Below, piece after piece: positions 33,529 to 53,783 of a DNA stretch of 54,895 nucleotides. The DNA lies in contig CALUKH010000001.1 of the NCBI GenBank assembly GCA_944321185.1, positions 1 to 54,895 of the forward strand, written 5' to 3'. The notes under the pieces were generated by a model that made no database searches, had not been told where the DNA came from, and was given only the letters and a program-made list of their open reading frames with translations. The position numbers were made by a program, and so were the translations under genes. The stretch is from an uncultured Alistipes sp. Its GTDB lineage: Bacteria > Bacteroidota > Bacteroidia > Bacteroidales > Rikenellaceae. Position 1 is the stretch's first letter, and every line of letters begins with the position of its first letter.

Positions 33529-33639
33529 GTTTTGGACAAAATCAATATTACATTGCACAAAATCAAAGGTTATTTGAGCGGTTTTAAAAATCAATTCTTC
33601 AATTCTCAGGGTCCCGGTGCGGGCTTATCGGTATTTTTG
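33529..33639 (+). promoter_or_regulatory. Heparin locus promoter 1 with 21-bp phased repeats (GH88-PL12-SGBP-susCD)
   Basis: The -7 element is TATTTTTG (33632-33639). Two direct repeats, ttttggACAAAATC and cattgcACAAAATC, have their ACA cores at 33536 and 33557, exactly 21 bp apart and 96 and 75 bp before the first T of the -7. Weak versions occupy the next two 21-bp positions (33578, 33599). GTCCCGG at 33611 lies 21 bp before the -7, as at the sulfatase promoter. There is no TTTG at -33, so activation by a bound protein is likely. The GH88 start codon is at 33681. Confidence 0.72.
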
Positions 33640-33680: not shown

Positions 33681-34880
33681 ATGAGAAAAAACCTCCTTCT
33701 GATTCCGGGACTTTTTTCCCTTTTTGTGCTGGGCTCCTGCCACACGGGGACCGATCCGAAACTTGCGCGCGTGAAGCATGCAATAGACGTTGCGCAGTCG
33801 CAGCTCGAACTCTCGTCGGCCGAGTTCGATTCGCTGCCGGGCTTCCCGCGGTCGCTGATGCCGAAATTCAAGGTCGTCGACGCCAAGGACTGGACCAGCG
33901 GCTTCTATCCCGGGACGCTCTGGGAGGCCTACCGCCTGACGGGCGACGAACATCTGCGCGCCGAGGCCGAGAAATTCACCGCACGCCTCGAAGGCATCCA
34001 ATATTATAAGGGTACGCACGACCTGGGCTTCATGGTCTTCTGCAGCTACGGACAGCAGCAGCGGACGCTGCACGACGCCCATTCGGCCGAGGTGATCGTC
34101 GAGGCGTCGAACAGCCTCATCTCGCGCTGCGATTCCACGATCGGACTGATCCGCTCGTGGGATTTCGGCGAGTGGAACTACCCGGTGATCATCGACAACA
34201 TGATGAATCTCGAGATGCTCTTCTGGGCCTCGAAGTACACCGGCGATCCGAAATACCGTGACGTGGCCGTGCGCCATGCCGACCTCACGCTCAAGAACCA
34301 TTTCCGCGAGGATGCCAGCTCCTATCACGTGGTGAGCTACAACGACGACGGAACGGTCGAAAGCCGCGGCACGTTCCAGGGCTATGCCGATTCGTCGGCC
34401 TGGGCCCGCGGACAGGCCTGGGGGCTCTACGGCTATACGATGTGCTACCGCGAAACGGGCGATACGAAGTATCTGGACCATGCGCGCCGCATCGCGTCGT
34501 TTATCATGAACCATCCCCGCACGCCGGCCGACCTGATTCCCTACTGGGACTACGATGCGCCGGACATTCCCGACGCTCCGCGCGATGCCTCGGCAGCGGC
34601 CGTGATGGCGTCGGCACTCTTCGAACTCTCGACGCTGGTTCCCGACAAGGAGCTGGGCCGCAGCTATTTCGACCGGGCCGAGACGATGCTCATGAACCTC
34701 TCGACGGATGCCTATCTGGCGCCCGTGGGCACCAACGGCGGCTTTATTCTCCGGCACAGCGTCGGCCACCTTCCGGCCCACAGCGAGATCGACACGCCGC
34801 TCAACTATGCGGACTACTACTACCTGGAGGCCATCGACCGTTACCTGGCCCTGCGCGGCGTGGCTGCACAGGAGCTTTGA
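33681..34880 (+). CDS. GH88 unsaturated glucuronyl hydrolase (lipoprotein)
   Basis: A 399-residue (alpha/alpha)6 enzyme. The signal peptide ends in a lipobox LGSC (Cys20). Residues after Cys (HTGT) are not acidic, so it probably faces the periplasm. The two catalytic aspartates are Asp114 in GTHDLGFMVF and Asp172 in IIDNMMNLEM; WTSGFYPGTLW and SSAWARGQAWGLYGY are also conserved. GH88 enzymes hydrate the 4,5-unsaturated uronate at the non-reducing end of lyase products, releasing it for KduI/KduD. It is the first gene of a five-gene unit with a PL12 lyase, SGBP, SusC and SusD, which points to heparin/heparan disaccharides as substrate. A C9 tract follows its stop. Confidence 0.93.
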   Translation: MRKNLLLIPGLFSLFVLGSCHTGTDPKLARVKHAIDVAQSQLELSSAEFDSLPGFPRSLMPKFKVVDAKDWTSGFYPGTLWEAYRLTGDEHLRAEAEKFTARLEGIQYYKGTHDLGFMVFCSYGQQQRTLHDAHSAEVIVEASNSLISRCDSTIGLIRSWDFGEWNYPVIIDNMMNLEMLFWASKYTGDPKYRDVAVRHADLTLKNHFREDASSYHVVSYNDDGTVESRGTFQGYADSSAWARGQAWGLYGYTMCYRETGDTKYLDHARRIASFIMNHPRTPADLIPYWDYDAPDIPDAPRDASAAAVMASALFELSTLVPDKELGRSYFDRAETMLMNLSTDAYLAPVGTNGGFILRHSVGHLPAHSEIDTPLNYADYYYLEAIDRYLALRGVAAQEL

Positions 34881-34883
34881 CCG

Positions 34884-34892
34884 CCCCCCCCC
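34884..34892. repeat. C9 homopolymer just after the GH88 stop
   Basis: Nine consecutive C beginning four bases after the GH88 stop and 32 bp before the PL12 start, within the operon. Confidence 0.9.
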
Positions 34893-34923
34893 AACCTCAG
34901 AAAACCCTAAAACCACTAATCAT

Positions 34924-37842
34924 ATGAAACGAATCTTTACGAAGATCTCGGTACTGTGTTTCGTCTCAGCGGCCGTGTTGACCACGGGGTGTCTGGGTGA
35001 CGAAATCCGCGGTACGGAGGACAGCAACGGTTCGCAGACGACCGAAACGACGATTCCGGGCAACAGCGTGATCGACGCCCGGGTCTTCGCGGCGTTGAAT
35101 CTCGAACTTCCGGAGCTGGCCGCCGTGAAGGCGTATTATGAGTCCGATCAGTACTACCTGGCGGCCGAGGCGCTGCTGAACTACTACCGGACGCGATCCC
35201 TTGCGAACAACAACATCAACCTGATTGCCCCGACGATCACGGCGCAGGAGCAGGCCCGGGCCGACTGGGCGCTTCCGGTCTCGGGCGGCAACCAGGACGG
35301 CTATCGCTTCTGGGTTGAGGATTACCTCGACGGCGACAAGCCCTACTCCTATCAGAACGGAGCGAAGCTCGACTGGACGGCCCGTTCGACGGCCGAGACC
35401 GAGGAGCGTTTCCGCCTGCACCGCCTGCAGTGGATGGTCCCGCAGGGCAAGGCCTACCGCACGACGCTCGACGAGAACTACGTCACCTCGTGGATGTCGG
35501 TCTACGAGAGCTGGCTGGAGACCTTCCCGCTGCCGGAGGGCGACTACGATTTCGAGGCCGATCCTTCGGGACAGCCCGAGGAGGTGCGCACGGCCCTCTA
35601 TGCCTGGCGTCCGATCGACGTGTCGTACCGTCTCGAAGATCAGTGCGATCTGATCTATTACTTCATGCAGTCGTCGTCCTTCACGCCGCAGCTGCTTGCC
35701 TCGTTCCTGGCCAACGTGGCCGAGCAGGCCGACCACGTGATGGGGCACTATTCGGAGGATTCGGCCGAACTGGCGCAGGAGTCCTATGCGGTCTATCGTG
35801 CGGGTACGATCTTCCCGGAGATGAAGCGGGCCGCCGAGTGGGTCGAGAGCGGATCGGTGGCGATGAACGACGGCGTGGACATCTCGATTTTCGACCTTCT
35901 GAACCTCTCCTACGGCGGTCTTTCGAAGGTGGCATCGGCCTATGCCGCGGGTGATTACCGCGTGGCCCTGCAGGAGCTGCTCAACAGCTACCGTTCGCGG
36001 ACCCACGGACTGAATCCCAACGTGAACGTCAACAGCGATGCGGCGACCACCAACGAGCAGAACTGGGCAAACTACGCCTTCCGCGAGAACGGTTACCGTT
36101 TCTATGTGAACAACTATTACGATGCGGCTGCCGGGGCGAACGTTCCCTATTCGTACATGAATGCCGACGGCACGGGCATCGACTGGACGCTCTGCCCGAC
36201 GGGCGAGCAGGAGCAGCGCTACCAGCTGCACCGCCACCAGTGGATGATCATGCAGGGCAAGGCCTACAACACGACCCACGACGAGCGTTACGTCGAGAAC
36301 TGGAAGGAGGTCTACGGCGACTGGCTGCGTCAGAATCCCAAACCCGAGCAGGGCACCGACGTGACCAACTCGCCGAACTGGCGGCCGCTGGACGTTGCGG
36401 CGCGCGTGATCGACCAGTGCGGTCTGCTGGAGTACTACCAGAACTCGGAGAACGTGACGGAGGAGTGGCTCTCGACGGTGCTGAAGGCCTTCGACGAGCA
36501 GGTGAACCACATCATGAACAACTACTCGACGACCTCGAACCATCTGATCACGCAGGCTCAGGCGGTGACCTTCGCCGGGATGCTCTTCCCCGAACTGAAG
36601 AACGCCGAGACGTGGCGGACGAACGGTCCGGGCGTCCTCGGACAGCAGGTGACGGCCCAGTACTTCCCCGACGGATGGCTCAAGGACGGCGACCTTCACT
36701 ACCATATTTCGAGTATCGCCGATTTCCGGCTGGCGCTGCTCGTGGACCAGCAGTGCGGCTATGAGAGCAGCTTCCCGGAGAGCTATCTGGAGTCGATGCG
36801 CAAGATGACGAACGTGGTGATGAACATGATCTACCCGGACTACACGGTGCCGAACATGGCCGACACGCGTCGCGATACGTGGACGCAGAGCGTTCTGACG
36901 CGCAATCTGACGCAGTACAGCCAGCTCTTCCCCGACGACCAGTCGATGTTGTGGATGGCCACGGGCGGCGCCCAGGGCACACAGCCCACGGCCAAGGTGG
37001 TGACCTTCCCCGACGGCGGCTACTACATCCTGCGTACCGGCTGGACGATGCAGGACATGATGATGGTGCTGCAGAACACGCCCGACGGCCCGAAGGAGCA
37101 GTGGCACCGTCAGTCGGACAACAACACCTTCGAACTCTGGGTCAAGGGCCGCAATTTCTTCCCCGATTCGGGCGCGGGCTCCTACGGCGGCAACTCGTCG
37201 TCGAACTCGATCCGTTCGCGCTACGCCGCCTCGAAGGCCCACAACACGATGACGCTCGACGAGAAGAACGTCGCCAGCGACGGCCGCATGCTCAAGCAGG
37301 AGTCGAAATCGACCTCGTCGTATGCCTACGAGGTGCTGGTGCTGGAGAACCCCTCGTATGAGGGTCTGACTCACCGCCGGACAGTCTTCCTGGTCGACGA
37401 CAAGTTCTACGTGATTCTCGACGAGGGTTACGGCTCGGCCGAGGGTACGGTCAACCTGAACTTCAACATCACCGAGGGTTCCGACTCGCAGGTCGTGCTG
37501 GACAGCGACGGTCTGGGCTTCCATACGGCCTTCAACGACAGCAACAACCTCTTTGTGCGGACCGTGTCGGACAAGACGGCCAGCTTTGCCGAGAAGTCGG
37601 GCTTCGTGGCCTACAACATCGTGACCGACACCTACAAGGAGATCTCGCGCAAGGCCTATCGCCTCGACGTGACGAAGCGTGCGGAGGATGCCGCGGTGCG
37701 CTACGTGACGCTGCTCTACCCGACGGCGGATGCCACGGCCGTACAGCCTTTCGAGGCCGAGCTGGGCGAGTGGTCGCAGACGGGTGCCTCGCTGACGGTG
37801 CGCGTCGACGGAAAGAGCTACAACCTCTCTTATACGCTGTAA
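34924..37842 (+). CDS. PL12 heparinase II/III-type lyase with duplicated N-terminal domain (surface lipoprotein)
   Basis: A 972-residue lyase, about 300 longer than the two PL12 proteins at 46069 and 48112. The lipobox TTGC (Cys23) is followed by LGDE, acidic as in surface-exported Bacteroidetes lipoproteins. Residues ~50-315 and ~320-600 are two copies of the same toroid half: compare ALNLELPELAAVKAYYES with LLNLSYGGLSKVASAYAA, and RFRLHRLQWMVPQGKAY with RYQLHRHQWMIMQGKAY. Copy 2 keeps the predicted catalytic Asn539 (SNHL) and Tyr593 (HYHISS), with His728 (QWHRQSDNNTFE) in the beta-sandwich half. In copy 1 SNHL is SAEL and the Tyr region is missing, so it is probably inactive and may bind glycan. 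It sits between GH88 and SGBP, like the surface lyase of the B. thetaiotaomicron heparin locus. Confidence 0.9.
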   Translation: MKRIFTKISVLCFVSAAVLTTGCLGDEIRGTEDSNGSQTTETTIPGNSVIDARVFAALNLELPELAAVKAYYESDQYYLAAEALLNYYRTRSLANNNINLIAPTITAQEQARADWALPVSGGNQDGYRFWVEDYLDGDKPYSYQNGAKLDWTARSTAETEERFRLHRLQWMVPQGKAYRTTLDENYVTSWMSVYESWLETFPLPEGDYDFEADPSGQPEEVRTALYAWRPIDVSYRLEDQCDLIYYFMQSSSFTPQLLASFLANVAEQADHVMGHYSEDSAELAQESYAVYRAGTIFPEMKRAAEWVESGSVAMNDGVDISIFDLLNLSYGGLSKVASAYAAGDYRVALQELLNSYRSRTHGLNPNVNVNSDAATTNEQNWANYAFRENGYRFYVNNYYDAAAGANVPYSYMNADGTGIDWTLCPTGEQEQRYQLHRHQWMIMQGKAYNTTHDERYVENWKEVYGDWLRQNPKPEQGTDVTNSPNWRPLDVAARVIDQCGLLEYYQNSENVTEEWLSTVLKAFDEQVNHIMNNYSTTSNHLITQAQAVTFAGMLFPELKNAETWRTNGPGVLGQQVTAQYFPDGWLKDGDLHYHISSIADFRLALLVDQQCGYESSFPESYLESMRKMTNVVMNMIYPDYTVPNMADTRRDTWTQSVLTRNLTQYSQLFPDDQSMLWMATGGAQGTQPTAKVVTFPDGGYYILRTGWTMQDMMMVLQNTPDGPKEQWHRQSDNNTFELWVKGRNFFPDSGAGSYGGNSSSNSIRSRYAASKAHNTMTLDEKNVASDGRMLKQESKSTSSYAYEVLVLENPSYEGLTHRRTVFLVDDKFYVILDEGYGSAEGTVNLNFNITEGSDSQVVLDSDGLGFHTAFNDSNNLFVRTVSDKTASFAEKSGFVAYNIVTDTYKEISRKAYRLDVTKRAEDAAVRYVTLLYPTADATAVQPFEAELGEWSQTGASLTVRVDGKSYNLSYTL
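35071..35868 (+). repeat. First (degenerate) copy of the PL12 N-terminal domain
   Basis: Codes for residues about 50-315 of the large PL12 protein. It aligns over its length with the copy encoded at 35881-36723, at protein level only; the DNA has diverged, so the duplication is old. The catalytic Asn position is Ala281. Confidence 0.75.
35881..36723 (+). repeat. Second (catalytic) copy of the PL12 N-terminal domain
   Basis: Codes for residues about 320-600, with predicted catalytic Asn539 and Tyr593. It is continuous with the beta-sandwich half, as in single-copy PL12 enzymes. Confidence 0.75.
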
Positions 37843-37863
37843 ACCTAAAACTGCAATACGAAG

Positions 37864-39978
37864 ATGAAATCACTGTTTCGAAATACAAGCCTTGCCGTGC
37901 TGAGTCTGCTTTGCGCGGCGGCCTTCACGGCCTGCGAAGAGGACGAGACATCGAGCGGCGGTCTGGAGCTCTACTACGCGACGGTCGTCAATATCGGTCC
38001 TTCGATGCTCTTCAATTCGGATGCCCCGACCTACTACGGTCCGGCGCCGTCGGATTTCTCGATCACGGCCATCACGCTCGACGATGCGGCGATTGCCAGT
38101 GAGAGCTTCTCGATCAATGCCACGACGGGCGTCGTGTCGATCACCAATACCAATGATCTTGAGCCGGGCGTCTACAAACTGACCATTACGTGCCTTTCGG
38201 GCGGCGCCTACCATACGTTCAAGGATCTCTTCACGGTGCAGATGTCGCCCGCTACGCCCGAGGCGCTGGAGGTCAGCTCTCCGACGCTCGAAATTCCCTA
38301 TGCCGACCTGGAGACGAGCGAAGCCAAGGTGACGGTTCAGCCCGTCGGCGAATCGGTGTCGATCCAGAGCTATGCGCTGGTTCAGCCCGAGGGTCAGGAG
38401 TACTTTGCCATCTCGCTCAACGGCGATGTCACGCTCAACGCCAATTTCACGGGTGAGGTGATGCCGGGCAACTATGCGCTTCCGATCACGGTGAAGACCT
38501 ATGCCGGCGAGATGACCTACGAGGGACTGCTCACGGGGCGCATCACCAGTCTGCCGCTTTCGGTGAGCTATCCGACCTCGGCGGGCCGCATCGAGACCAA
38601 TATGGCCTTCCAGAGCACGACGCCGACGCTGAAGGGTTCGCCCGACGAGGTGGTGTGGACGATCCGCCAGATCCGCCCGAGCGAAGGAAGTCCGGCGACG
38701 GATCTGATCAAGATCGACCCCGCGACGGGTGTCCTTTCGGTCGATGCGGGGAACAACCTTCCCGTTGATGCGGTCTATACGCTGGATCTGACGGTGACGA
38801 ACAGCTTCGGATCGGCCGATTTCGACGGCGCCTTCACGCTGACGGTGGTCGACTACATCGAACCCATCGATGCCTCGACCTTCGGCTACGAACCCGTTGA
38901 GGCGATCCAGGGCGGCGAATTCACGGCCGAGAAGCGTGCCGGATTCGTCGGTGACGAGGTGACGTTCGCCTTCGGAACGCTGCCGGCCGAGGTCGACGGA
39001 CAGATCTCGATCGACCAGACGACGGGCAAGATCACGGCCGCCAAGGGCCATTCGATTCCGCTGGGCAGCTACGAGATTCCGGTCGTAGCCTCGAACCTGA
39101 AGGGTCAGGCCACCACGACGCTCCAGCTGACCGTGAGCGAGAATCCCTACTACTTCACGACGATCCACTACGGCAACAACCTGGGTCTGACTCCGGCCGA
39201 GAACTACGCCAGCCAGTACCGGTGCCCGACGTCGGGCGATCTGACGTCGCTCGTGCTCACCCCGACGACCGATGCCAAACCGGGTACGGAGCTGACCTGG
39301 TCGATCAAGATCAAGCAGCAGTGCTCGGGAACGACCATCGATTCGCAGACGGGCGAGATCATCCCCAAGGGCTTCAAGGCCAACAACGGCGGTCTGATTC
39401 TGGTGACGGCCACGGCCGGCAAGGGAAAGGTCGGCGAGACTTCGGTGACGGTTCCGGTCTTCTTCTCGTTCATCCAGGCCATGAGCGGCGTGACGGTTCA
39501 CTATACGCCGTTCGTCTTCCAGGTGAATCCGCGCACGGGCGGCACGTCGGCTGTTCCGACCATCGATGGCGTCGATCCGTCGCTCTTCCTGATGGATTAT
39601 CGCCGGACGTTCAACTACTACAACTTCAACGGTCCCGCGTCGCATCTCGACGGACAGCCGTCGGCCGGCGGATCGTTCATGTACAGCGTCTGGAGCTCCT
39701 ATTTCACGAGCATCGGCAGCGCCACGGTCAATACGGGATCGAAGGATCCGGTATCCTACTATTCGAATGCATCGCGACTGAGTTCGGCGCTGTGCTACGT
39801 CGATCCGACGACGAAGGCACTGGTTGTCAATCCGAACAAGTGGGTCGATGCCAACGGCGTGGCAGCCAACGGCGCGATGCTGGGTCAGATGACCTTCGTG
39901 ACCGACGGCAACCAGGGCGGCATCAACAGCGGTTCGCAGATCTTCCCGCTGTGGGTATGGTTCGACGAGAAATTTTAA
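37864..39978 (+). CDS. Surface glycan-binding lipoprotein (BT4661-like)
   Basis: A 704-residue lipoprotein: lipobox FTAC (Cys24) followed by EEDE, the acidic signal for export to the cell surface. The body is a row of Ig-like/cadherin-like beta domains of about 90 residues; repeated phrases such as SINATTGVVSITNTNDLEPG, IDPATGVLSVDAGNNLPVDA and IDQTTGKITAAKGHSIPLG mark three of them. The C-terminal ~200 residues (from about SENPYYFTTIHYGNNLGL) form the probable glycan-binding end. Position directly before susC in a locus with PL12 and GH88 parallels BT4661, the heparin-binding protein of B. thetaiotaomicron. No catalytic motif is seen. Confidence 0.85.
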   Translation: MKSLFRNTSLAVLSLLCAAAFTACEEDETSSGGLELYYATVVNIGPSMLFNSDAPTYYGPAPSDFSITAITLDDAAIASESFSINATTGVVSITNTNDLEPGVYKLTITCLSGGAYHTFKDLFTVQMSPATPEALEVSSPTLEIPYADLETSEAKVTVQPVGESVSIQSYALVQPEGQEYFAISLNGDVTLNANFTGEVMPGNYALPITVKTYAGEMTYEGLLTGRITSLPLSVSYPTSAGRIETNMAFQSTTPTLKGSPDEVVWTIRQIRPSEGSPATDLIKIDPATGVLSVDAGNNLPVDAVYTLDLTVTNSFGSADFDGAFTLTVVDYIEPIDASTFGYEPVEAIQGGEFTAEKRAGFVGDEVTFAFGTLPAEVDGQISIDQTTGKITAAKGHSIPLGSYEIPVVASNLKGQATTTLQLTVSENPYYFTTIHYGNNLGLTPAENYASQYRCPTSGDLTSLVLTPTTDAKPGTELTWSIKIKQQCSGTTIDSQTGEIIPKGFKANNGGLILVTATAGKGKVGETSVTVPVFFSFIQAMSGVTVHYTPFVFQVNPRTGGTSAVPTIDGVDPSLFLMDYRRTFNYYNFNGPASHLDGQPSAGGSFMYSVWSSYFTSIGSATVNTGSKDPVSYYSNASRLSSALCYVDPTTKALVVNPNKWVDANGVAANGAMLGQMTFVTDGNQGGINSGSQIFPLWVWFDEKF

Positions 39979-39987
39979 TCTAACTGA

Positions 39988-42900
39988 ATGAAATCAATGA
40001 AACAGATATTGAACCGGGTATTCGGGCTGAGAGGGGTTTTGACCCTTCTCGCCCTGACGGTGGTCTTCGCGGCCACGGCCCAGAACAAGATAACGGGAAA
40101 GGTGACCGACGAGAACGGACAGCCGGCCATCGGAGCCAACATCGTGGTGAAAGGCACGACGCAGGGCGTCTCGACGGACCTCAAGGGGCAGTATGCTCTC
40201 TCGGTGAAGAAGGGGGCCGTGCTGGTCTTCTCCTACCTGGGCTACAAGTCGCAGGAGATCACCGTCGGCGCGCAGACCAAGATCGACGTGCAGCTGGAGC
40301 CCGAAGCCAATGTGATGGATGAAGTGGTTGTGGTGGGTTACGGAGCGCAGCGGCGCAGCAACCTGACAGGAGCAATCGCTTCGGTTTCGGCCAAGGATGT
40401 CGAGGGCTTCAAGTCGGGATCGGTCATGGAGGCGCTGGGCGGCCAGATCGCCGGTGTGCAGATCACGGCGACGGACGGTACGCCGGGTGCGGGCTTCGAC
40501 ATCAAGATCCGCGGTATCGGATCGGTCAACGGCGAGACTACGCCGCTCTATATCGTCGACGGATTCCAGGTCGACAACATCGACTACCTGTCGAACTCGG
40601 ACATCGCCTCGATCGAGGTGTTGAAGGATGCCTCCTCGTCGGCCATCTACGGATCGCGTGCGGCCAACGGCGTGGTGATGGTGACGACCAAATCGGGTAA
40701 GGTGGGGCGTCCGGTGGTGACCTACAACGGTTCGGCCAGCTACCGCGAGATCTCGAAGACGCTCGATCTGCTCACGCCCTACGAGTTCGTGCGGCTGCAG
40801 ACCGAGGCGTGGCCCGACAAGTTCGGCGACACCTACTACAAGTCGGGCAACGACGACAACGGCGTTCCGTACCGTTACCAGACGATCGACGACTATATCG
40901 GCGTCGCGGGGATCGACTGGCAGGGCGAGACCTTCCAGCCGACCTGGTCGCAGGACCACAACGTCTCGGTGTCGGGCGGTTCGGACAAGACGAAGTACGC
41001 CTTCTCGTTCTCGGATTTCCTCGAAAACGGTATCTTCAAGAACAGTGCCTTCAACAAGATCACGGCCAAGATGCGCGTGAACCACAGGATCTCGAAGCTG
41101 CTCTCGATCGACGCCACGGTCAACTACGCCTTCACGGACAAGCGCGGTATGGGAACGTCGGGAGACAACGGACGTTTCAACATGCTGGGCCAGATTCTGC
41201 GGGCCCGTCCGACGGGCGGTCTGCGGATGACCGACGAGGAGTTGCTCAATTCGGCAATCGACCCGCTGGAGCTCGAGTCGTCGGAGTCGCTCTCGCAGGT
41301 GAACCCGATCAAGCAGGCCGAGTCGGTGACCAACACCAAGAAGGCCGAGATGTGGGCCGGCAACCTGGCGCTGAACTTCAATTTCGGCAAGGGCTGGAGC
41401 TTCCGCATGGCCGGTTCGTACAACACGACCAACACGCGCAACTACCAGTTCTACTACGACGGTTCGAAGGAGGCCTACCGCAACGGCCAGACTCCCTACG
41501 GTTCGACCCAGATGACGCGCGACGTGCGCTGGACGAACTTCAACTACCTGACCTACAAATATAAACAGAAGAACGGACATGCGTTCGACGTGATGCTGGG
41601 TCAGGAGACCTCGTTCCGCGGCACGGAGTATCTGAAGGGTCAGTCGACCGACTTTCCGTTCGACAACCTGGGCAACGACAACCTGGGTCTGGGCGCCACG
41701 CCGAGCCAGGTGACCTCGTCGCGGTCGGACAACCTGCTGGTTTCGTTCTTCGCGCGCGGCAACTACAGCTACAAGGACCGCTACCTCTTCACGGCGACGA
41801 TCCGTGCCGACGGTTCGACGGTCTTCTCGAAGAACAACAAGTGGGGATACTTCCCGTCGTTCTCGGCGGCCTGGCGTATTTCGGAGGAGCCCTTCATGAA
41901 GCATCAGGATGTGATCTCGAACCTCAAGCTGCGTGCCGGCTGGGGCATTGTGGGTAACGACCGCATTACGAACTACCTCTCGCTGACGCTCTACACGCAG
42001 AACAAGTACGGCTACGGCAACAGCCTCATCACGGTGCTGTCGCCCAAGCAGCTGCCGAACGAGGACCTCAAGTGGGAGGCTTCGCAGAGCACGAACATCG
42101 GTCTGGATCTGGGACTGTTCCGCAACCGGCTGAACATCACGGCCGACCTCTTCCTCAAGGATACGAAGGATCTGCTCATGGCGGCTAACAAGGCCTATGT
42201 GTCGGGCTTCGGATCGCAGTGGCAGAACGTGGGCAAGATCCGCAACAAGGGTCTCGAACTGGCGATCAACTCGACGAACATCGCCTCGCCGAGCGGCTTC
42301 CGCTGGACGACGGACTTCAACATCTCGTTCATCCGCAACGAACTGCGGGCTCTGGCCGACGGTGCCCAGACGATGTACACCTCGGCGTCGTGGAACAGCG
42401 ACTATACGGGCTACGACTACATGGCCATGGTGGGTCAGTCGCTGGGTCTGATCTACGGCTATGAGTTCGACGGCGTCTACCAGTCGTCGGATTTCGTGGT
42501 CGACGCGGCCACGGGTGAGAACCGCCTGCGCGAGGGTGTCGTGGACATGTCGGAGCACTATACGAGCGGCGAATTCGGTCCGGGCGTGGTGAAGTACAAG
42601 GATGTGGACGGCGATGGCAAGATCACGACCAACGACCGTACGGTGATCGGCAACGGTACGCCGAAATGGTACGGCGGTATCACCAATACGTTCTCCTACA
42701 AGGGAGTCGACCTGAGCTTCATGTTTCAGTTCAACTACGGCAACGACGTCTACAACGCCACGCGCATGTACGCCTCGCAGACGCAGGACCAGCGATCGAA
42801 CATGATGGCCGAGGTGGCCGACCGCTGGACGGCGACCAACGCCTCGAACAGCGTTCCGCGCTGGGACGGCTACGTGAAGAACGAACTCTATTCGCGATTC

Positions 42901-43155
42901 GTGGAGGACGGCTCGTTCCTGCGACTCAAATCGCTGACGCTGGGCTATACGCTTCCGCAGTACTGGACCCGGAAGTTCTATGTTTCGAAATTGCGCATCT
43001 ACTTCACGGCGCAGAATCTCTTCGTGGTGACGGGTTACTCGGGCTACGATCCGGAGGTGAACATGCGGGCCTCGAACCCGATGACGCCGTCGTTCGACTG
43101 GGGTGCCTATCCGCGCAGCAAAGTATACACGATGGGTCTTGACCTGACCTTCTAA
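39988..43155 (+). CDS. susC: SusC-type TonB-dependent outer-membrane glycan importer
   Basis: A 1055-residue receptor: signal peptide to about FAATAQ, a carboxypeptidase-D regulatory-like domain (KITGKVTDENGQPAIGANIV), plug with DEVVVVGYG (TonB-box-like) and VMEALGGQIAGVQI, SIEVLKDASSSAIYGSRAAN, and a 22-strand barrel ending in Phe (TMGLDLTF). With SusD (15 bp downstream) it imports heparin/heparan oligosaccharides across the outer membrane, powered by TonB-ExbBD. It follows the SGBP stop by 9 bp. Substrate is inferred from the lyases around it. Confidence 0.95.
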   Translation: MKSMKQILNRVFGLRGVLTLLALTVVFAATAQNKITGKVTDENGQPAIGANIVVKGTTQGVSTDLKGQYALSVKKGAVLVFSYLGYKSQEITVGAQTKIDVQLEPEANVMDEVVVVGYGAQRRSNLTGAIASVSAKDVEGFKSGSVMEALGGQIAGVQITATDGTPGAGFDIKIRGIGSVNGETTPLYIVDGFQVDNIDYLSNSDIASIEVLKDASSSAIYGSRAANGVVMVTTKSGKVGRPVVTYNGSASYREISKTLDLLTPYEFVRLQTEAWPDKFGDTYYKSGNDDNGVPYRYQTIDDYIGVAGIDWQGETFQPTWSQDHNVSVSGGSDKTKYAFSFSDFLENGIFKNSAFNKITAKMRVNHRISKLLSIDATVNYAFTDKRGMGTSGDNGRFNMLGQILRARPTGGLRMTDEELLNSAIDPLELESSESLSQVNPIKQAESVTNTKKAEMWAGNLALNFNFGKGWSFRMAGSYNTTNTRNYQFYYDGSKEAYRNGQTPYGSTQMTRDVRWTNFNYLTYKYKQKNGHAFDVMLGQETSFRGTEYLKGQSTDFPFDNLGNDNLGLGATPSQVTSSRSDNLLVSFFARGNYSYKDRYLFTATIRADGSTVFSKNNKWGYFPSFSAAWRISEEPFMKHQDVISNLKLRAGWGIVGNDRITNYLSLTLYTQNKYGYGNSLITVLSPKQLPNEDLKWEASQSTNIGLDLGLFRNRLNITADLFLKDTKDLLMAANKAYVSGFGSQWQNVGKIRNKGLELAINSTNIASPSGFRWTTDFNISFIRNELRALADGAQTMYTSASWNSDYTGYDYMAMVGQSLGLIYGYEFDGVYQSSDFVVDAATGENRLREGVVDMSEHYTSGEFGPGVVKYKDVDGDGKITTNDRTVIGNGTPKWYGGITNTFSYKGVDLSFMFQFNYGNDVYNATRMYASQTQDQRSNMMAEVADRWTATNASNSVPRWDGYVKNELYSRFVEDGSFLRLKSLTLGYTLPQYWTRKFYVSKLRIYFTAQNLFVVTGYSGYDPEVNMRASNPMTPSFDWGAYPRSKVYTMGLDLTF

Positions 43156-43170
43156 AAAAGCAAACGAACT

Positions 43171-44814
43171 ATGAAAAAAATCTTATTATACGGTTTGTCG
43201 GCCCTGGGGCTGCTGTTTACGGCATCGTGCTCCGATCTGCTGGAGGAGGAGTCGTACGTGGAGGTCGGCAAGAACAACTACGTGAATAATGCCGAGGAGG
43301 CGGAGACGGTGCTGATGGGCATCTACAAGGATCTGGCCAACGAGTACCTGTATTCGTACCACCTGTCGCTGCTGTTCACCATTTCGTCGGACATCGCGCA
43401 GTGCGAGGGTAATGCGACCACGTCGTTCCGCGAGATCCCGACCAATTCGCACAACCCGTCGACGTCGCAGATCATGCAGACGTGGCAGAAGCTCTATGCG
43501 TCGATCTACGAGGCCAACGACTTCATCGAGACCGTTTCGTCGCGCATCGACGGCTGGAGCGCCTCGAACCAGGAACTGGCAACGATCTATCTGGGCGAAG
43601 CCCGGGCTCTGCGGGCACTGTTCTACTTCGAGCTGGTGCGCTGGTACGGCAACATCGTGCTGATCACGTCGACCGAGCAGTCGCAACTCCCGGCCACGGA
43701 GTACGTGCAGGCCGATCCGAAGGATGTCTATGCCTTCATCGAGGCGGATCTGAAGTATGCCTCGGAGGTGCTTCCGTGGGCGGTCGACGATACGAAGCGT
43801 TCGTCGAATGCCTATCGGTTCTCGAAGGGAGCGGCGCTGGGCCTGCTGGCGAAGGTCTACTGCACGTGGGCCGGTTATCCGGTTCGCGACGAGACGAAGT
43901 GGGCCGAGGCGGCGAAGGTGGCGCGCCAGGTGGTCGAATCGGGCAAACACCGCCTGATTCCGAACTACGAGACGGTCTGGACGAATACGTGCAACGGCAT
44001 CTGGGATGCGGGTGAGAGCCTGATCGAGGTTTCGTTCTATTCGCCCACGGGTCTGGACAGTGACCAGACGGCCGGACGTATCGGCAAGTGGAACGGCGTG
44101 GTGGCCGATGCGGTCGAGGGGCAGCGGGGTCGCAATGCGGCCAACTGGAAGGTGGTCTACACCTTCACGCGCGAGTGGGAGACGCACAACGACCCGCGCA
44201 TGGCCATCTCGATAGCCGACTACAAGTACGATTCGTCGAAGGGCGACGGCCCGATCACCTACATCTCGACGGTCACCAACCCCACGGAGGACAACCTGAA
44301 CAAGCAGCGTCAGCTCTACACGCCGGGCAAATGGGACACGGAGAAGTTTGTGAATTCGTCGAACTACATCGTCAACAACGACAAGTCGAACATCAACTGG
44401 TATGTGCTTCGTTATTCGGACGTGCTGCTGCTGTTTGCCGAGGCGCTGAACGAGTCGGGCGGATCGATTGTCGATGCGGTGGATGCGGTCAATGCGGTGC
44501 GTCGGCGCGGTTTCGGCGACACGGACCACGATCTCTCCTACGGGCTTTCGCGCGATGCGCTGCGTGAGGCGATCCGCAAGGAGCGGGCCTACGAACTCTG
44601 CTTCGAGGGCCACCGCAAGCAGGATCTGATCCGCTGGGGCATCTATTACAAGACGATCATGAGCACGGCGCAGGAGCTGGTCGACTGGTTCTCGAATGCG
44701 AACTATACGGTGGGTCGCTTCACGGTGGAGGGGCGGCACGAGCTGCTGCCCATTCCGCAGCGCGATCTGGACCTGATGACGCAGTGCAAGCAGAATCCCG
44801 GATGGGGCGAATAG
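43171..44814 (+). CDS. susD: SusD/RagB-type glycan-binding surface lipoprotein
   Basis: A 547-residue SusD protein: lipobox TASC (Cys20), then SDLLEEE typical for the family. The TPR-rich helical core has LGEARALRALFYFELVRWYG and AYRFSKGAALGLLAKVYCTW. The C-terminal segment holds RDALREAIRKERAYELCFEG and the usual end (LLPIPQRDLDL, then NPGWGE). It forms the lid of the SusC barrel and delivers oligosaccharide. It is the last gene of unit 1, and a strong terminator follows. Confidence 0.95.
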   Translation: MKKILLYGLSALGLLFTASCSDLLEEESYVEVGKNNYVNNAEEAETVLMGIYKDLANEYLYSYHLSLLFTISSDIAQCEGNATTSFREIPTNSHNPSTSQIMQTWQKLYASIYEANDFIETVSSRIDGWSASNQELATIYLGEARALRALFYFELVRWYGNIVLITSTEQSQLPATEYVQADPKDVYAFIEADLKYASEVLPWAVDDTKRSSNAYRFSKGAALGLLAKVYCTWAGYPVRDETKWAEAAKVARQVVESGKHRLIPNYETVWTNTCNGIWDAGESLIEVSFYSPTGLDSDQTAGRIGKWNGVVADAVEGQRGRNAANWKVVYTFTREWETHNDPRMAISIADYKYDSSKGDGPITYISTVTNPTEDNLNKQRQLYTPGKWDTEKFVNSSNYIVNNDKSNINWYVLRYSDVLLLFAEALNESGGSIVDAVDAVNAVRRRGFGDTDHDLSYGLSRDALREAIRKERAYELCFEGHRKQDLIRWGIYYKTIMSTAQELVDWFSNANYTVGRFTVEGRHELLPIPQRDLDLMTQCKQNPGWGE

Positions 44815-48072: not shown

Positions 48073-48111
48073 GTCGGTGGTTTTGAGTTTGTCGGTTATC
48101 GGGTTGTTGAA

Positions 48112-50118
48112 CTATTTCAGGTTGTATTTCCGGCCGTCGATCTTCACGCGGATGCCGTCTTTGCGTCCGACGGCCTCGATGCGGTGGTCTTCGGCCCGGT
48201 CGACGGGCAGCAGCACGGTGATGAAGCGGAGCGTCTGCCCGGGGCGTTTGTCGGCCGTGAAGGCGCAGGCCGGACGCGGATGACGCTCGCGGTAGCGGTA
48301 GGAGACCCATCCCTCCTGGGGGATCATCTCTTCGGCGCCGAAGACGCGGAGCATCAGATTGTTGCCGTCGTCGTAGCGCGTCGTCACGCAGCAGGCCGCG
48401 GAGTCGGCTTCGGGCGAACCTTCGGCCAGATTCCAGTGGAGCATGACGCGGCCCGAGGCCTCTCCCTCGGCGCGATCCTCGATGACGAAGAATCGCCGGT
48501 CGACGAACCAGACCGTGCGTCGGTGGGTGAGCCCCTCGTAGGAGGGGTTCTCGACCGTGAGGATGTCGCACTTCGCGTCGGTCTGCCAGCGGATGCATTT
48601 CGAGTCGGTGGTTTCGAGATTCCGGCCGTCGAGCGTCAGGGTGTTGTGGACGCGGGTTTGGCGGAACCAGTTGCGCAGGTCGTTGACCTGCTTGTCGCCG
48701 GCGTAGACGTAGCACCCCGAATCGGGCAGGAAGTTGCGGCCGCGGGACCATATTTCGAAGGTTCCGTTGTCGGGCTGGCAGTGCCAGAAGCCCTTCGGGC
48801 CGGCCTTGAGGATCATCACCGTGGCATCCTGCTCCCAGCCGTTGCGCAGGACGTAGAATCCCGACGTGGCGTATGCGCGCGAGAGGTAGTCGGGGGCCGA
48901 GCCTTCACGGCCCTCGGTGGCGCGCCAGCGGATGAAGGCATTGTCGGGGAAGACCTGCATCCATTCGCGGTAGGAGGCCAGCAGCTGGGCCTTGTCGTGC
49001 TGGCGGTTGTCGCTGAAGAGCGGGGTGGTGTAGTCGGGGTAGGAGCAGTTGAGGTGGACGTCGATCATGCGTTCGACGGTGGCGAGGTATTCGGCTGGGA
49101 ATTCGCCGCGATACCCGTTGGCATCCATCATGCGCAGTGCCTTGAAGAAGATGTTGATCGATTCCAGATGGTAGTGCGGGTCGAGTTCGTACTGCATGCC
49201 GTCGTCGTAGACCTGGCGGCGGATTTCGCGGTTGAGGATCTCGACGCCGGTAGCGCGCCAGCGGGCGGCATCGCGGAATTCGGGGAAGAAGGCTCCGGCG
49301 AAGAGCAGCCGCTGGGCCTCGAAGAGCAGATGGTTCCCCGAGGCGGAGAAGTGGCCGAGGATGTGTTCGGCATGACGGTGGTAGTTGTCGAGGAACCGCA
49401 GGAGGAACTCCCCGTCGAAGGCCCGGGCCGGCAGGAAGTAGAGGAACTGCTGGATCTGGTATTCGAGCCGGTCGCTCACCTCGAGCGGGCGCCAGGCGAA
49501 GAAGACGTTGTCGGCCTGGCTCCAGTCGCCGGAGCGCCCCCGGTCGTACCCTTCGAGGGGGTTCTTGCGGATCCAGTCGAGGTATTCGGCACACCACTCC
49601 GTGGCGTAGCGTTCGTCGCCCGAGCGGCGGTAGGCCTTGCCCATGGGCACCCACCACTTCATGCGGTGCAGCTGCCAGCGGAGTTCGTTGTCCTTGACGG
49701 GCCAGTATTGCCAGTCGATGTCGTCGCCGTAGAAGAACGAGGGCTGGTATCCCGAGTGGACGAAGAAGCGGTGTTCGAGCGCCTCGTCGGCCCATCGCTG
49801 TTCGTCGGCGGAGATCACCACCGAATCGAGATCAACGTCGGGGCAGACGACGCCCCGGCGCGTCCGGAAATATTCCAGCAGAGCCTGGGTGGCGGCCTGG
49901 TCATCGCCGGCCGTATGGAGCCGGGCTACGCGTTCGAGCCCCGGGCGCGAGAGGTCCAGCAGGGCGAAGACCGTCGTGTCGCCGCATGCTTCGTCGGACG
50001 GCGTGCCGGAGGCGGTCTTGCTGTGTAGGGCAGAATTCCCGGAGCGGGCTTCGGCGCAGAGGAGCGTTCCGACGAAGAGCATCGTCAGCAGTGGAAGAAT
50101 CAGCGGGCGGATTTTCAT
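48112..50118 (-). CDS. PL12 heparan sulfate lyase (heparinase III-like), copy B
   Basis: A 668-residue paralogue of copy A with the same layout. The signal region is MKIRPLILPLLTMLFVGTLL followed by CAEA; LLC is a poor lipobox, so cleavage by signal peptidase I is assumed. Catalytic residues are Asn262 (GNHLLFEAQRL), Tyr316 (DPHYHLESINIF) and His446 (FWHCQPDNGTFE). The Y-containing segment DPHYHL is closer to BT4657 than that of copy A (DFGYHI). It is first in the minus-strand unit, behind its own -7 element at 50187-50194 with phased repeats. Two paralogues in one operon suggest different preferences for sulfation or chain length. Confidence 0.93.
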   Translation of the reverse strand: MKIRPLILPLLTMLFVGTLLCAEARSGNSALHSKTASGTPSDEACGDTTVFALLDLSRPGLERVARLHTAGDDQAATQALLEYFRTRRGVVCPDVDLDSVVISADEQRWADEALEHRFFVHSGYQPSFFYGDDIDWQYWPVKDNELRWQLHRMKWWVPMGKAYRRSGDERYATEWCAEYLDWIRKNPLEGYDRGRSGDWSQADNVFFAWRPLEVSDRLEYQIQQFLYFLPARAFDGEFLLRFLDNYHRHAEHILGHFSASGNHLLFEAQRLLFAGAFFPEFRDAARWRATGVEILNREIRRQVYDDGMQYELDPHYHLESINIFFKALRMMDANGYRGEFPAEYLATVERMIDVHLNCSYPDYTTPLFSDNRQHDKAQLLASYREWMQVFPDNAFIRWRATEGREGSAPDYLSRAYATSGFYVLRNGWEQDATVMILKAGPKGFWHCQPDNGTFEIWSRGRNFLPDSGCYVYAGDKQVNDLRNWFRQTRVHNTLTLDGRNLETTDSKCIRWQTDAKCDILTVENPSYEGLTHRRTVWFVDRRFFVIEDRAEGEASGRVMLHWNLAEGSPEADSAACCVTTRYDDGNNLMLRVFGAEEMIPQEGWVSYRYRERHPRPACAFTADKRPGQTLRFITVLLPVDRAEDHRIEAVGRKDGIRVKIDGRKYNLK

Positions 50119-50186: not shown

Positions 50187-50297
50187 CAAAGATACGACAA
50201 ACTGCCGAGCCGTTTTATCAGGATTTCATAATCCTCGGCGGAAAATCTGCAAAGCGATTTCAGTTTTGTGCAGTCCGATGCGGAATTTGTTGAATCT
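50187..50297 (-). promoter_or_regulatory. Heparin locus promoter 2 with 21-bp phased repeats (PL12-PL12-PL13 unit)
   Basis: On the minus strand the -7 element is TATCTTTG (50194 to 50187), about 69 nt before the PL12 start. Repeats gattcaACAAATTC (core A at 50290) and actgcACAAAACTG (core A at 50269) lie exactly 96 and 75 bp upstream of the first T, the same distances as at the other two promoters. Weak copies at -54 (tttgcAGATTTTC) and -33 (ttatGAAATCC) fill the 21-bp steps. Confidence 0.68.
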
Positions 50298-50328
50298 GGC
50301 GGTTGCCGAGCGGGCTGTGGCGGCTTTT

Positions 50329-50435
50329 GGGACAAATTTGGGATTCGATTCTACAAAATCGAAAGGCTTTTGGACACGATTCGGGATTTCGGGGACAAAC
50401 TCCGGGGTCCCGGACTGTGGAATTTTCTACCTTTG
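50329..50435 (+). promoter_or_regulatory. Heparin locus promoter 3 with four 21-bp phased repeats (sulfatase unit)
   Basis: The -7 element is TACCTTTG (50428-50435). Four direct repeats have their ACA cores at 50332, 50353, 50374 and 50395, exactly 21 bp apart: ttttggGACAAATTT, gattcTACAAAATC, ttttgGACACGATT and ttcgggGACAAACTC. They sit 96, 75, 54 and 33 bp before the first T of the -7. The last copy covers the -33 position. GTCCCGG at 50407 lies 21 bp before the -7, as at promoter 1. Transcription would begin near 50442, which excludes the upstream ATG codons at 50266 and 50278 for the sulfatase. Confidence 0.75.
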
Positions 50436-50574: not shown

Positions 50575-51990
50575 ATGAACCTTTTGACCTCCACCGCTCC
50601 GTTCGCCACGCTTGCGACGCTCATAGCGGCCGCCGATACGGCTGCCGCTCCGGCTCCTGCCTCCAAACCGGGGGCTGCCGCCGACCGGAATCCCGATATC
50701 ATCGTCATCATGACCGACCAGCAGACGGCCCGGGCCATGTCCTGTGCCGGCAATCCGTGGGTGCGGACCCCGGCCATGGATGCCCTGGCGGCCGACGGCG
50801 TGCGCTTCACGCGGGCCTATTGCCCCTATCCGCTCAGCGGACCCTGCCGGGCTTCGCTCATCACGGGGCGGATGCCCTTCGAGGTGGGGGCCACGGACAA
50901 CGGCGTGCGTCCGTCGGACGAAGCCATGCGTCAGGGAATCGGCCATCGTCTGTCGGCGGCCGGCTACGAGTGCCTCTACGCCGGGAAATGGCACGTCCCG
51001 GAGGTGAATCTTCCCGATTCGGGGACGGGTTTCCGCCGCATCTCGAAGATGGACGATCCGACGCTGGCCGAGGCATGCGATGCGGCGCTGGCCGAGTACG
51101 ACGGCCGACGTCCGCTCTTTCTGGTGGCCTCGCTGCTCAATCCGCACGAGATCTGCGAATACGGCCGCAACGAAACGCTGCAATACGGCGAACTGGAACC
51201 CTTCGCCACGGAGGATTGCCCGAATCTGCCGGCCAACTTCATGCCGTCGACCTATGCGGCCGAGGCGCTGACGCTCGAACGCTCGGCCTCGCCGCGCTAT
51301 CACGATACCTACACCTATACGCAGGATGACTGGCGCCGTTATCTGTACGCTTACTACCGCTTCGTCGAACGCGTCGACCGCGAGGTGGGGCGTATTGTCG
51401 AGGTGCTGAAGCGCCGCGGACTGTACGACGATGCGGTGATCCTCTTCCTGTCGGATCATGGCGACGGGGCGGCGGCTCACGGCTGGAACCAGAAGTGGTG
51501 CCTGCAGGAGGAGGTGGTCAACGTGCCGCTGGTCGTCAAGGCGCCGAAGGGCCGCGGACTGCGCGGTGCGGTCAACCGTGAGGCGCTGTCGAACGTCGGG
51601 CTGGACCTCTACGCCACGCTCTGCGATTATGCCGGCGTGGAGCTCGATCCGGCGGTTTATCGCGGACGGAGCCTGCGGCCGGTGGCCGAGGGACGGGCGA
51701 CGACGCTCCACGAGGAGATCTTCGTCGAGACGCTGCTTTCGGGTGTCGGCATGCGGGGCTGGAGTATCGTCGGGCCGCGTTACAAATACATCCTCTACCA
51801 GTGGGGCCGCAACCGCGAGGCACTCTATGATCTGGAGGCGGATCCGGGCGAGATGGTCAATCTGGCCGTCGACCGGCGCTATCGGGCCGAACTCGACCGC
51901 ATGCGCCGGACGCTCTACGAATGGGGCCAGCGGATCGGCGAGGCGCGTCTGATCCGCAATCTGCGCCCCTTTGCCGAGGCCGGGGAGTGA
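50575..51990 (+). CDS. S1 family sulfatase, heparin 2-O-sulfatase-like
   Basis: A 471-residue sulfatase. Metal-site residues are in DIIVIMTDQQTARAMSCAGN. The formylglycine signature is S88-G-P-C-R with ITGR, so Ser88 is the predicted modified residue. GKWHVPEV, LLNPHEICEYGRNE, FLSDHGDGAAAHGWNQKWC and YKYILYQWGRNREALYDLEA follow. The DQQ start, NPHEICEY and HGDGAAAHGWNQK resemble the Pedobacter heparin 2-O-sulfatase, which removes 2-O-sulfate from unsaturated uronate ends before GH88 acts; this is moderate inference. The signal region is unusual, hydrophobic but Ala/Thr-rich (LLTSTAPFATLATLIAAADT). The ATG at 50575 is chosen for that region; 50521 is also possible and adds a Pro-rich stretch. 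Confidence 0.85.
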   Translation: MNLLTSTAPFATLATLIAAADTAAAPAPASKPGAAADRNPDIIVIMTDQQTARAMSCAGNPWVRTPAMDALAADGVRFTRAYCPYPLSGPCRASLITGRMPFEVGATDNGVRPSDEAMRQGIGHRLSAAGYECLYAGKWHVPEVNLPDSGTGFRRISKMDDPTLAEACDAALAEYDGRRPLFLVASLLNPHEICEYGRNETLQYGELEPFATEDCPNLPANFMPSTYAAEALTLERSASPRYHDTYTYTQDDWRRYLYAYYRFVERVDREVGRIVEVLKRRGLYDDAVILFLSDHGDGAAAHGWNQKWCLQEEVVNVPLVVKAPKGRGLRGAVNREALSNVGLDLYATLCDYAGVELDPAVYRGRSLRPVAEGRATTLHEEIFVETLLSGVGMRGWSIVGPRYKYILYQWGRNREALYDLEADPGEMVNLAVDRRYRAELDRMRRTLYEWGQRIGEARLIRNLRPFAEAGE

Positions 51991-52109
51991 TTCCCGCCGA
52001 TTTCGGGCGGCCGGCAGCCGGAGCGATCCGATCCATTCGGCACCGTCCGTGCCACATCCATACCCAATCTGAAAACAAACGAAAACCAACCGTTGACCGG
52101 AACCCTACC

Positions 52110-53783
52110 ATGAAAAACCTCGAAATCCTGCGGACGGGAGCACGCTGTGCCGTCGTGCCGCTGACACTGGCGACCCTGCCGGGTTGCGACGGCGGAGAGC
52201 CCAAACGCCCCAACATTCTCGTGATGATGACCGACGACCACACGGCCCAGGCCATGAGCTGCTACGGGAGCCTGCTGGTCGAGACCCCGAATCTGGACCG
52301 TCTGGCGCGCGAGGGGATGCTCTTCGAGAACTGCTACGTCTCGAACGCCATCTCGGGCCCCTCGCGGGCCTGCATCCTCACGGGCAAGTACAGCCACGTA
52401 AACGGCTTCACGGACAATTCGCGCACCTTCGACGGCGATCAGCCCACCTTCCCCAAGCTGCTGCACGAAGCGGGCTACCAGACGGCGATGATCGGCAAGT
52501 GGCACCTGAATTCCGATCCGCAGGGGTTCGATTTCTGGAGCATCCTCGTGGGGCAGGGCGAGTACTACGCGCCGCAGTTCATCGAGAACGGCGAGCCGCG
52601 CACCGAGCCGGGCTACGTCACGGACATCATCACAGACAAGGCCCTCTCGTTTCTCGAGCGGCGGGATCCTTCGCGGCCTTTCGCCATGCTCTACTACCAC
52701 AAGGCGCCGCACCGCAACTGGATGCCGGCGCAGCGTCACCTGGGCATCAACGACGAGCGGGTCTATCCCGAGCCGTTCAACCTGCTGGACGACTATTCGG
52801 GACGGGGCAGTGCGGCCCGAGAGCAGGCCATGGAGATCGGGCGCGACATGTGGCCGGAGTGGGATCTGAAGCTGATGACGCCCGAGGAGCTGGCCCAGTC
52901 CTACGTGCTCGAGAGCACGGGCGATGCCAACAAGGATGACGTCGCACGGGCCAACAACTGGCGCAGCAGCGTCATGCAGTACCAGGCGGCCTACAACCGC
53001 ATGACCGACGAGGAGAAGGCGCGTTGGAACGAGGCCTACGCTCCGCGCATTGCCGAGTACGAACGTCTCCGGAAGACGGCCACGCCCGACGAGATGACGC
53101 GCTGGAAGTACCAGCAATATATGAAGGACTACTGTGCGGTGATCCAGGCCGTGGACGAGAACGTGGGGCGTCTGCTGGACTATCTGGAGCAGACGGGCGA
53201 GCTCGACAACACGATCATCGTCTATACTTCGGACCAGGGCTTTTTCCTGGGCGAGCACGGCTGGTTCGACAAGCGCTTCATGTACGAGGAGTGCCAGCGC
53301 ACGCCGCTGCTGGTCCGCTATCCGCCGCTCGTAGGGGCCGGGACGCAGAGCCGAGCCCTGGCCATGAACATCGATCTGGCGCCGACGTTCGTCGATCTGG
53401 CCGGGCTTCCGGTTCCGGACGACATGCAGGGACGTTCGCTGCGCGACGTGCTTGCCTCGGGGGGCGCGACGCCCGAAGGGTGGCGCACGGGGGTCTATTA
53501 CCATTATTACGAGTATCCGTCGTGGCACTCGGTCAAGCGTCACTACGGCATCCGCACGGCCGACTACAAGCTCATCCACTTCTACAACGACGTGGACGAA
53601 TGGGAGCTCTACGACCTGAAACACGATCCGCACGAGATGCAGAACGTCTATAACGATCCCGCCTATGCCGACGTCCGCACGCAGCTGCATGCCGATCTGG
53701 AGCGTCTGCAGCGCGAATGCGGCGATATGGACCCCTGCGAACGGGAGTATGAATTCTTCCGGGGGTCGGATCACCTCGAATAG
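52110..53783 (+). CDS. S1 family sulfatase, N-acetylglucosamine-6-O-sulfatase-like (lipoprotein)
   Basis: A 557-residue sulfatase resembling BT4656 (S1_11), the 6-O-sulfatase of the B. thetaiotaomicron heparin locus. It has lipobox LPGC (Cys26), NILVMMTDDHTAQAMSCYGS, the signature S82-G-P-S-R-A-C with ILTGKYSHVNGFTDNS, MIGKWHLNSDPQGFDFWSIL, and TSDQGFFLGEHGWFDKRFMY. The serine-type site needs the radical SAM maturase anSME, not encoded here. It would remove 6-O-sulfate from glucosamine at chain ends in the periplasm. It starts 119 bp after the first sulfatase and ends 82 bp before the DUF3604 gene. Confidence 0.9.
   Translation: MKNLEILRTGARCAVVPLTLATLPGCDGGEPKRPNILVMMTDDHTAQAMSCYGSLLVETPNLDRLAREGMLFENCYVSNAISGPSRACILTGKYSHVNGFTDNSRTFDGDQPTFPKLLHEAGYQTAMIGKWHLNSDPQGFDFWSILVGQGEYYAPQFIENGEPRTEPGYVTDIITDKALSFLERRDPSRPFAMLYYHKAPHRNWMPAQRHLGINDERVYPEPFNLLDDYSGRGSAAREQAMEIGRDMWPEWDLKLMTPEELAQSYVLESTGDANKDDVARANNWRSSVMQYQAAYNRMTDEEKARWNEAYAPRIAEYERLRKTATPDEMTRWKYQQYMKDYCAVIQAVDENVGRLLDYLEQTGELDNTIIVYTSDQGFFLGEHGWFDKRFMYEECQRTPLLVRYPPLVGAGTQSRALAMNIDLAPTFVDLAGLPVPDDMQGRSLRDVLASGGATPEGWRTGVYYHYYEYPSWHSVKRHYGIRTADYKLIHFYNDVDEWELYDLKHDPHEMQNVYNDPAYADVRTQLHADLERLQRECGDMDPCEREYEFFRGSDHLE

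Follow-up and report, generated by a model that had tools for sequence, protein, structure and literature searches.

A candidate four-site HTCS operator ladder at the promoters of a heparin-type locus in Alistipes

Introduction

AraC-type domains contact about 20 bp of DNA each, and a direct repeat with a 21-bp step is generic for such domains. At araBAD, the I1-I2 site of AraC consists of two half-sites arranged head to tail with a 21-bp step, of which the proximal lies beside the polymerase site. Hybrid two-component regulators (HTCSs) are a major class of regulators for polysaccharide use in Bacteroides (PMC11253607), and their motifs have been predicted as direct repeats of two conserved sites with an average step of 21 bp (Ravcheev et al. 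2013, PMC3878776). The latter study names sites of HTCS_Hep, the BT4663 regulator of Bacteroides thetaiotaomicron, upstream of BT4662, BT4675 and the BT4658 operon, and the response-regulator part of BT4663 was found to bind the bt4662 promoter in EMSA in a phosphorylation-dependent manner (PMC11253607). The promoter consensus deduced in B. fragilis has TAnnTTTG at -7 and TTTG near -33 (PMC7366714).

We analyzed a stretch of 54,895 nucleotides from an uncultured Alistipes sp. (the window), in which four ACA cores in 21-bp phase ahead of a sulfatase gene had been predicted to form a multi-site operator for an AraC-type activator. AraC I1-I2 combines two half-sites with a sigma-70 promoter, whereas the arrangement here combines four half-sites with a TAnnTTTG promoter. 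The array resembles the HTCS_Hep operators, as the text of that study describes them, in being a direct repeat with a step of about 21 bp upstream of heparin/heparan sulfate genes and in having a regulator of the same kind, but two sites with no promoter register are described there, whereas here there are four at fixed distances from the -7 element, and the likeness is one of description (PMC3878776). BT4663 is likewise a regulator of the same type, whose receiver and AraC-type domain together bind DNA in a phosphorylation-dependent way; that study relied on EMSA, without site mapping or a half-site count in the text examined (PMC11253607). The original prediction was unaware of any operator of this form having been published for a heparin locus, a claim to novelty that fails because a 21-bp direct-repeat operator of heparin genes, HTCS_Hep, was already published in 2013 (Ravcheev et al. 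2013, PMC3878776). SusR-like operators, which are also direct repeats controlling polysaccharide loci, were considered and rejected as a model since their site centres are given as 67 or 77 bp apart, in contrast to the 21-bp steps found here (PMC3878776).

Results

By its gene content (lyases, an SGBP_BT4661-like protein and sulfatases), the window holds a heparin/heparan sulfate-type locus. Genes for a GH88 enzyme, a heparinase II/III lyase, an SGBP_BT4661-like protein, SusC and SusD occupy 33681..44814 of the plus strand, the first three being identified by Pfam and the SusC and SusD assignments by reading the ORF translations, without a family search. The minus strand encodes one polysaccharide lyase and two heparinase II/III lyases at 44924-50118, including, by family search, the heparinase II/III family lyase of the divergent operon at 48112..50118. 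On the plus strand, a sulfatase (50575..51990; PF00884 and SGSH_C by family search) is the first gene of its operon, and a second sulfatase (SGSH_C, 231 bits) is found at 52104..53783. Beyond the window, the locus continues with a DUF3604-like protein whose start is still inside it, a ROK-family protein, a DUF4962/heparinase-like gene and then an HTCS. The DUF4962/heparinase-like gene (L059:8700-11239, on G000:C1) is split into several frames, through either decay or an assembly error.

The HTCS gene closes the locus some 4.5 kb beyond the window (G000:C1:59395-63498). Its product is 1367 aa long and combines propeller, Y_Y_Y, HisKA, HATPase, receiver and HTH_18 domains. Its sensor matches PDB 4a2l/4a2m (E 1e-176; 592 bits for chain 4a2l), which we take to be the sensor of BT4663. 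A search at E up to 1e-150, with at most three candidates scored per genome, found orthologues of 59-100% identity in 14 of 180 genomes of the genus, the next HTCS matches being 30-34% identical; the orthologue in G086 (L069:10886-14831) reads as two overlapping frames. Where a single contig carries both the HTCS gene and the sulfatase promoter (9 of the 14 genomes), the gene lies downstream of the promoter and in the same orientation, and for this reason we considered whether the regulator might control its own gene through that promoter. Positive autoregulation of this kind was unsupported, since a TAnnTTTA element stands just upstream of the HTCS gene in all six genomes examined and a terminator-like hairpin precedes the gene in one of the two scanned, with shuffles giving such matches at 0.6 per region; the hairpin scan found none ahead of the HTCS gene in the window's own genome. 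HTCSs are described as having low constitutive expression (PMC6874557), which fits better than feedback.

With positions numbered from the T of TA in TAnnTTTG, the promoter of the sulfatase operon carries ACA cores 96, 75, 54 and 33 bp ahead of the -7 element TACCTTTG (50428-50435, plus strand). The corresponding half-sites, all on the plus strand, extend over 50326..50345 (core at 50332), 50347..50366 (core at 50353), 50368..50387 (core at 50374) and 50389..50408 (core at 50395). A direct check of positions bore out the strict 21-bp steps and the 33 bp from the last core to TAnnTTTG that had been predicted, as well as the absence of TTTG at -33, none being present 15-26 bp before the TA. Nowhere else in the window, on either strand, do four or more ACA follow one another at any constant step of 15-31. 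In dinucleotide shuffles, 2000 for the 121-bp stretch with the plus strand scanned and 2000 for the 456-bp intergenic region with both strands scanned, no four-ACA chain with such steps arose; the ACA triplet and the 21-bp step were choices made post hoc, after looking. Self-identity at offset 21 amounts to 37% (p 0.006); by autocorrelation the best offset up to 60 was unremarkable (p 0.395), and a repeat search returned spacings of 43 and 20, not 21. Since the copies are only loosely alike outside their cores, repeat identity alone cannot carry the operator claim, and the main support for the array is its conservation rather than repeat identity.

Alignment of the orthologous upstream regions in Alistipes, proposed with the original prediction as a check, showed the cores and their spacing to be kept in all 14 locus-bearing genomes. 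All four half-sites of the sulfatase promoter stand in register in each of these genomes, with ACA in 14/14 at -96 (within a conserved block), at -75 and at -33, and ACA in 10 and ACG in 4 at -54. TAnnTTTG is likewise kept in 14/14, and a TTTG 18 bp before the TA occurs in one of the 14 genomes (G155).

The original prediction was incomplete in that the array is not peculiar to the sulfatase promoter, the -96/-75 pair being shared by three promoters: that of the sulfatase, that of the divergent heparinase operon on the minus strand and that of the GH88-SusCD operon (33632). In the divergent promoter (minus strand), the -96 half-site covers 50277..50296 (core ACA, 5' A at 50290) and the -75 half-site 50256..50275 (core ACA, 5' A at 50269), both present in 14/14 genomes and standing at -97 and -76 in two of them, and the -7 element of the heparinase operon, the TAnnTTTG element TATCTTTG, is at 50187..50194. 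The GH88-SusCD promoter (plus strand) has its -96 half-site at 33530..33549 (core ACA at 33536, 14/14) and its -75 half-site at 33551..33570 (core at 33557, ACA in 12/14 and ACG in 2/14), followed by the TAnnTTTG element TATTTTTG at 33632..33639, the -7 element of the GH88-lyase-SGBP-SusC-SusD operon. The exact pattern ACA-18-ACA-72-TANNTTTG matches three times in the 1.97-Mb assembly (79% complete), at these three promoters only, and the pair and -7 pattern lengthened by one base has no match there.

The HTCS orthologue and the three operator promoters co-occur in the same 14 of the 180 genomes. A script that sought this form found the -96/-75 pair in 42 of 42 promoters (14 genomes times three), no promoter failing, and the exact pair with its -7 element matched three times in each of 12 genomes and once in the other two, the reversed control pattern giving no match in any of the 14. 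The exceptions to the exact pair are in G156 and G232, which have one additional base pair in the divergent promoter and ACG as the second core of the GH88 promoter. Specificity is not perfect: among the 166 other genomes of the genus, 56 have at least one match to the pair and -7 pattern, and reversed controls also match in part of them; four (G022, G028, G055 and G171) have three or four scattered matches each. Distant heparinase orthologues that are 55-57% identical (L036-L038) have no such array upstream.

The distance between the -7 elements of the two divergent promoters is 241 bp in 10 of the 14 genomes, 242 bp in two and 231 bp in two, and the divergent arrays, standing back to back, leave a gap of 42 bp in 12 genomes and of 32 bp, shorter by about one turn, in the other two. 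The distance from the -7 element to a fixed sulfatase codon, which takes in the leader and the signal-peptide region, spans 130-282 nt in 12 of the 14 genomes, those in which it could be measured, and the corresponding distance for the heparinase spans 84-320 nt in 10 of the 14. Promoters and arrays thus keep their spacing, and the stretches beside them are free to vary in length.

The promoter-proximal positions were examined with a matrix built solely from the -96/-75 sites of two of the promoters, with which the third was scored at offsets 24 to 133 as the mean over the 14 genomes. In each of the three left-out promoters, -54 and -33 ranked 3rd to 5th of 110 offsets, and in all three they were weaker than -96/-75; four of the six mean scores were below zero (-3.2 to -5.7), where the background mean was -21 to -24 with a standard deviation of about 9. 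The clearest proximal cores are those of the sulfatase promoter, where -54 ranks 3rd and -33 ranks 5th with a negative absolute score, and elsewhere in the window the cores read AGA, GAA, GCG and TCA. In the divergent heparinase promoter (minus strand), the degenerate half-sites lie at 50235..50254 (-54, core AGA, rank 4) and 50214..50233 (-33, core GAA, rank 3), both with negative absolute scores, and the plus-strand sequence CTGCAAAG at the former is invariant in the seven aligned genomes. Those of the GH88-SusCD promoter (plus strand) lie at 33572..33591 (-54, core GCG, rank 5 with a negative absolute score) and 33593..33612 (-33, core TCA, rank 3). The picture is one of four sites in the sulfatase promoter and weaker -54/-33 sites in the other two, set against a published motif description of two sites that is not worded as an upper limit; the array would extend that description and not conflict with it.

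A separate observation concerns a strongly conserved Alistipes block at 33571-33615 of the window, between the GH88-SusCD operator and its -7 element, in which AATTCTTCAATTCTC is identical in 8 of 14 genomes. The block overlaps the degenerate -54 and -33 half-sites, and its conservation extends past their cores.

Outside Alistipes, the assumption that the lyase comes first failed, with the pair right upstream in 3 of 67 loci (L130 was skipped as too short), and it was replaced by a search of whole loci. The best 79 loci of a scan for heparinase relatives were used; 11 Alistipes loci were set apart, leaving 68, among which is L145, a locus titled Alistipes. In these 68 loci, pairs of ACA at 21 bp before TAnnTTTG clustered at 33, 74 and 75 bp (12, 14 and 11 of 77 pairs), whereas across the other spacings from 12 to 32 the maxima at 33, 74 and 75 bp were only 5, 2 and 6. 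We then picked 28 non-Alistipes promoters by an upstream pair at 74-76, and TAnnTTTG elements less than 150 bp from a locus end and repeats sharing their last 60 bases were dropped before counting. ACA stood exactly at -33 in 24 of the 28 (the exceptions being L085, one of L114, L126 and L152) and in 16 of 18 sequence clusters represented by their first member, and exactly at -54 in 5 of the 28. A matrix run over the 28 promoters ranked -33 2nd or 5th and -54 6th of 124 offsets. All four cores are ACA in the promoters of L141, L143, L148 and L151, where the step from -74 to -54 measures 20 bp.

At the 860 other TAnnTTTG elements of the same loci, the frequency of ACA at -33 was 0.066, about fourfold the mean over offsets of 0.016, so some of these may be HTCS promoters too, and this excess in the absence of an upstream pair suggests that promoters carrying only the proximal site may exist. 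TTTG near -33 was found in 0 of the 28 pair-selected promoters and at 64 of the 860 other elements, numbers that are too few for a claim of avoidance.

The three-core pattern ACA-18-ACA-38/39-ACA-30-TAnnTTTG matched 49 times in 16 of 21 whole Bacteroidales genomes, which were chosen because each holds a heparinase relative; by register the matches divide into 13 in 9 genomes and 36 in 14, and the two reversed patterns gave 0 and 0 matches in the 21 genomes. At each of the 43 places fetched out of the 49, an ORF of 100 aa or more starts within 230 nt, and many of these places precede glycan-use genes. In the Pfam tally, which covers the first 25 of 44 families for these 43 proteins, we find the TonB plug in 8, the heparinase N-terminus in 7, GH88 in 4, DUF4962 in 4 and SGBP_BT4661-like in 3, with one or two each of GH115, GH127, GH95, GH43, GH67, fucosidase and sulfatase, and at least two of the 43 (L244 and L253) have N-termini unlike those of glycan-use genes. 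The mixture of downstream families indicates that the ladder reaches beyond heparin loci; a few matches may be due to chance.

Discussion

The array at the sulfatase promoter is very probably an operator of the HTCS_Hep type for the HTCS encoded at the end of the locus. The prediction of a multi-site operator for an AraC-type activator, here an HTCS, gains support from the conservation in 14/14 genomes, from the nearby HTCS with its HTH_18 domain and from the co-occurrence of the two. Heparin as the signal, binding by the HTCS, the order of occupancy and the contact with polymerase are what we infer from this arrangement. The HTCS would sense heparin fragments in the periplasm and phosphorylate its own receiver domain, by which the AraC-type DNA-binding domain would be released. 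Each DNA-binding domain would cover about 21 bp, and the high-affinity -96/-75 pair would recruit one dimer at each of the three promoters. The weaker -54/-33 pair, which shares the helical phase of the distal pair and stands at a fixed distance from the -7 element, could then place further domains against RNA polymerase, so that four domains at 21 bp would lie head to tail on one face of the DNA with the last one near the missing -33 TTTG. The likely order of events would be the strong distal pair, then the weak proximal pair and then the contact with polymerase.

It is unlikely, though it deserves serious weight, that only the -96/-75 pair is the HTCS operator and that the -54 and -33 cores serve another protein or a sequence need of the promoter itself. 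The proximal sites are the weaker ones in all three promoters and often lack ACA, the exact -54 ACA is present in only 5 of 28 non-Alistipes promoters, and the published HTCS motif, as described in the text, has two sites (PMC3878776). This reading does not explain why a matrix built from the HTCS pair ranks -54 and -33 so high among the 110 offsets in all three promoters, or why the -33 ACA accompanies the pair (24/28) and is far rarer at other TAnnTTTG elements (0.066). On the sequence evidence, we therefore take the promoter-proximal half-sites to belong to the ladder.

Binding of the array by a different AraC-family regulator instead of the locus HTCS is improbable: a 21-bp direct repeat is generic, being the average of HTCS motifs in the published description (PMC3878776), but operator and HTCS orthologue are found in the same 14 of 180 genomes, and wherever the two share a contig (9 of 14), the HTCS gene lies downstream of the sulfatase promoter in the same orientation. 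We give still less credit to the idea that the 21-bp phase reflects phased A-runs that curve the DNA intrinsically and not a row of protein sites; ACAAA or ACAAAA does recur in many copies at a distance of two helical turns, but -54 cores without an A-run (ACACGAT, ACATGAT and ACAGAAG in the seven aligned genomes) keep the register, which is fixed relative to the -7 element. Chance alignment of ACA triplets, which are common and were picked together with the 21-bp step after looking, is scarcely credible and was rejected in view of the shuffles (0/2000 at steps 15-31) and the 14/14 conservation.

In relation to the published HTCS motif, the -54/-33 half-sites and the fixed four-step ladder are new as far as we have searched; the article text covered by our literature search gave no account of such half-sites, which is weak evidence of novelty. 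HTCS operators are otherwise described, in the text of that study, as two-site repeats without a promoter register (PMC3878776). From the patterns found in other genomes, promoters of this type may generally carry the two extra sites at a set distance. A bolder reading, which we hold tentatively and with rather more doubt than confidence, is that -96/-75/-54/-33 constitutes a general code of HTCS-activator promoters across the Bacteroidales, in which two head-to-tail dimers would bind with the proximal one replacing the -33 element, the upstream pair could slip by 1 bp while the -33 core stays locked to -7, and one eight-domain complex would form on the divergent promoter. That last suggestion comes from the array gap, which is held at 42 bp (12/14) or 32 bp (2/14) between flanks of variable length. 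The fixed ladder with its -33 ACA gives a simple signature, ACA-18-ACA-38/39-ACA-30-TAnnTTTG, which predicts regulon members, transcription starts and the bases to mutate.

Two minor observations were made alongside. The non-Alistipes ladder promoters of L246, L249, L255, L262, L263, L268 and L269 have a different half-site, of the form TGTAACA or TGTTACA, which points to further HTCSs that share this geometry. In the left part of the window, a terminase large-subunit-like ORF at 5722-7416 (Pfam Terminase_6N, 24 bits) gives a hint of prophage remains.
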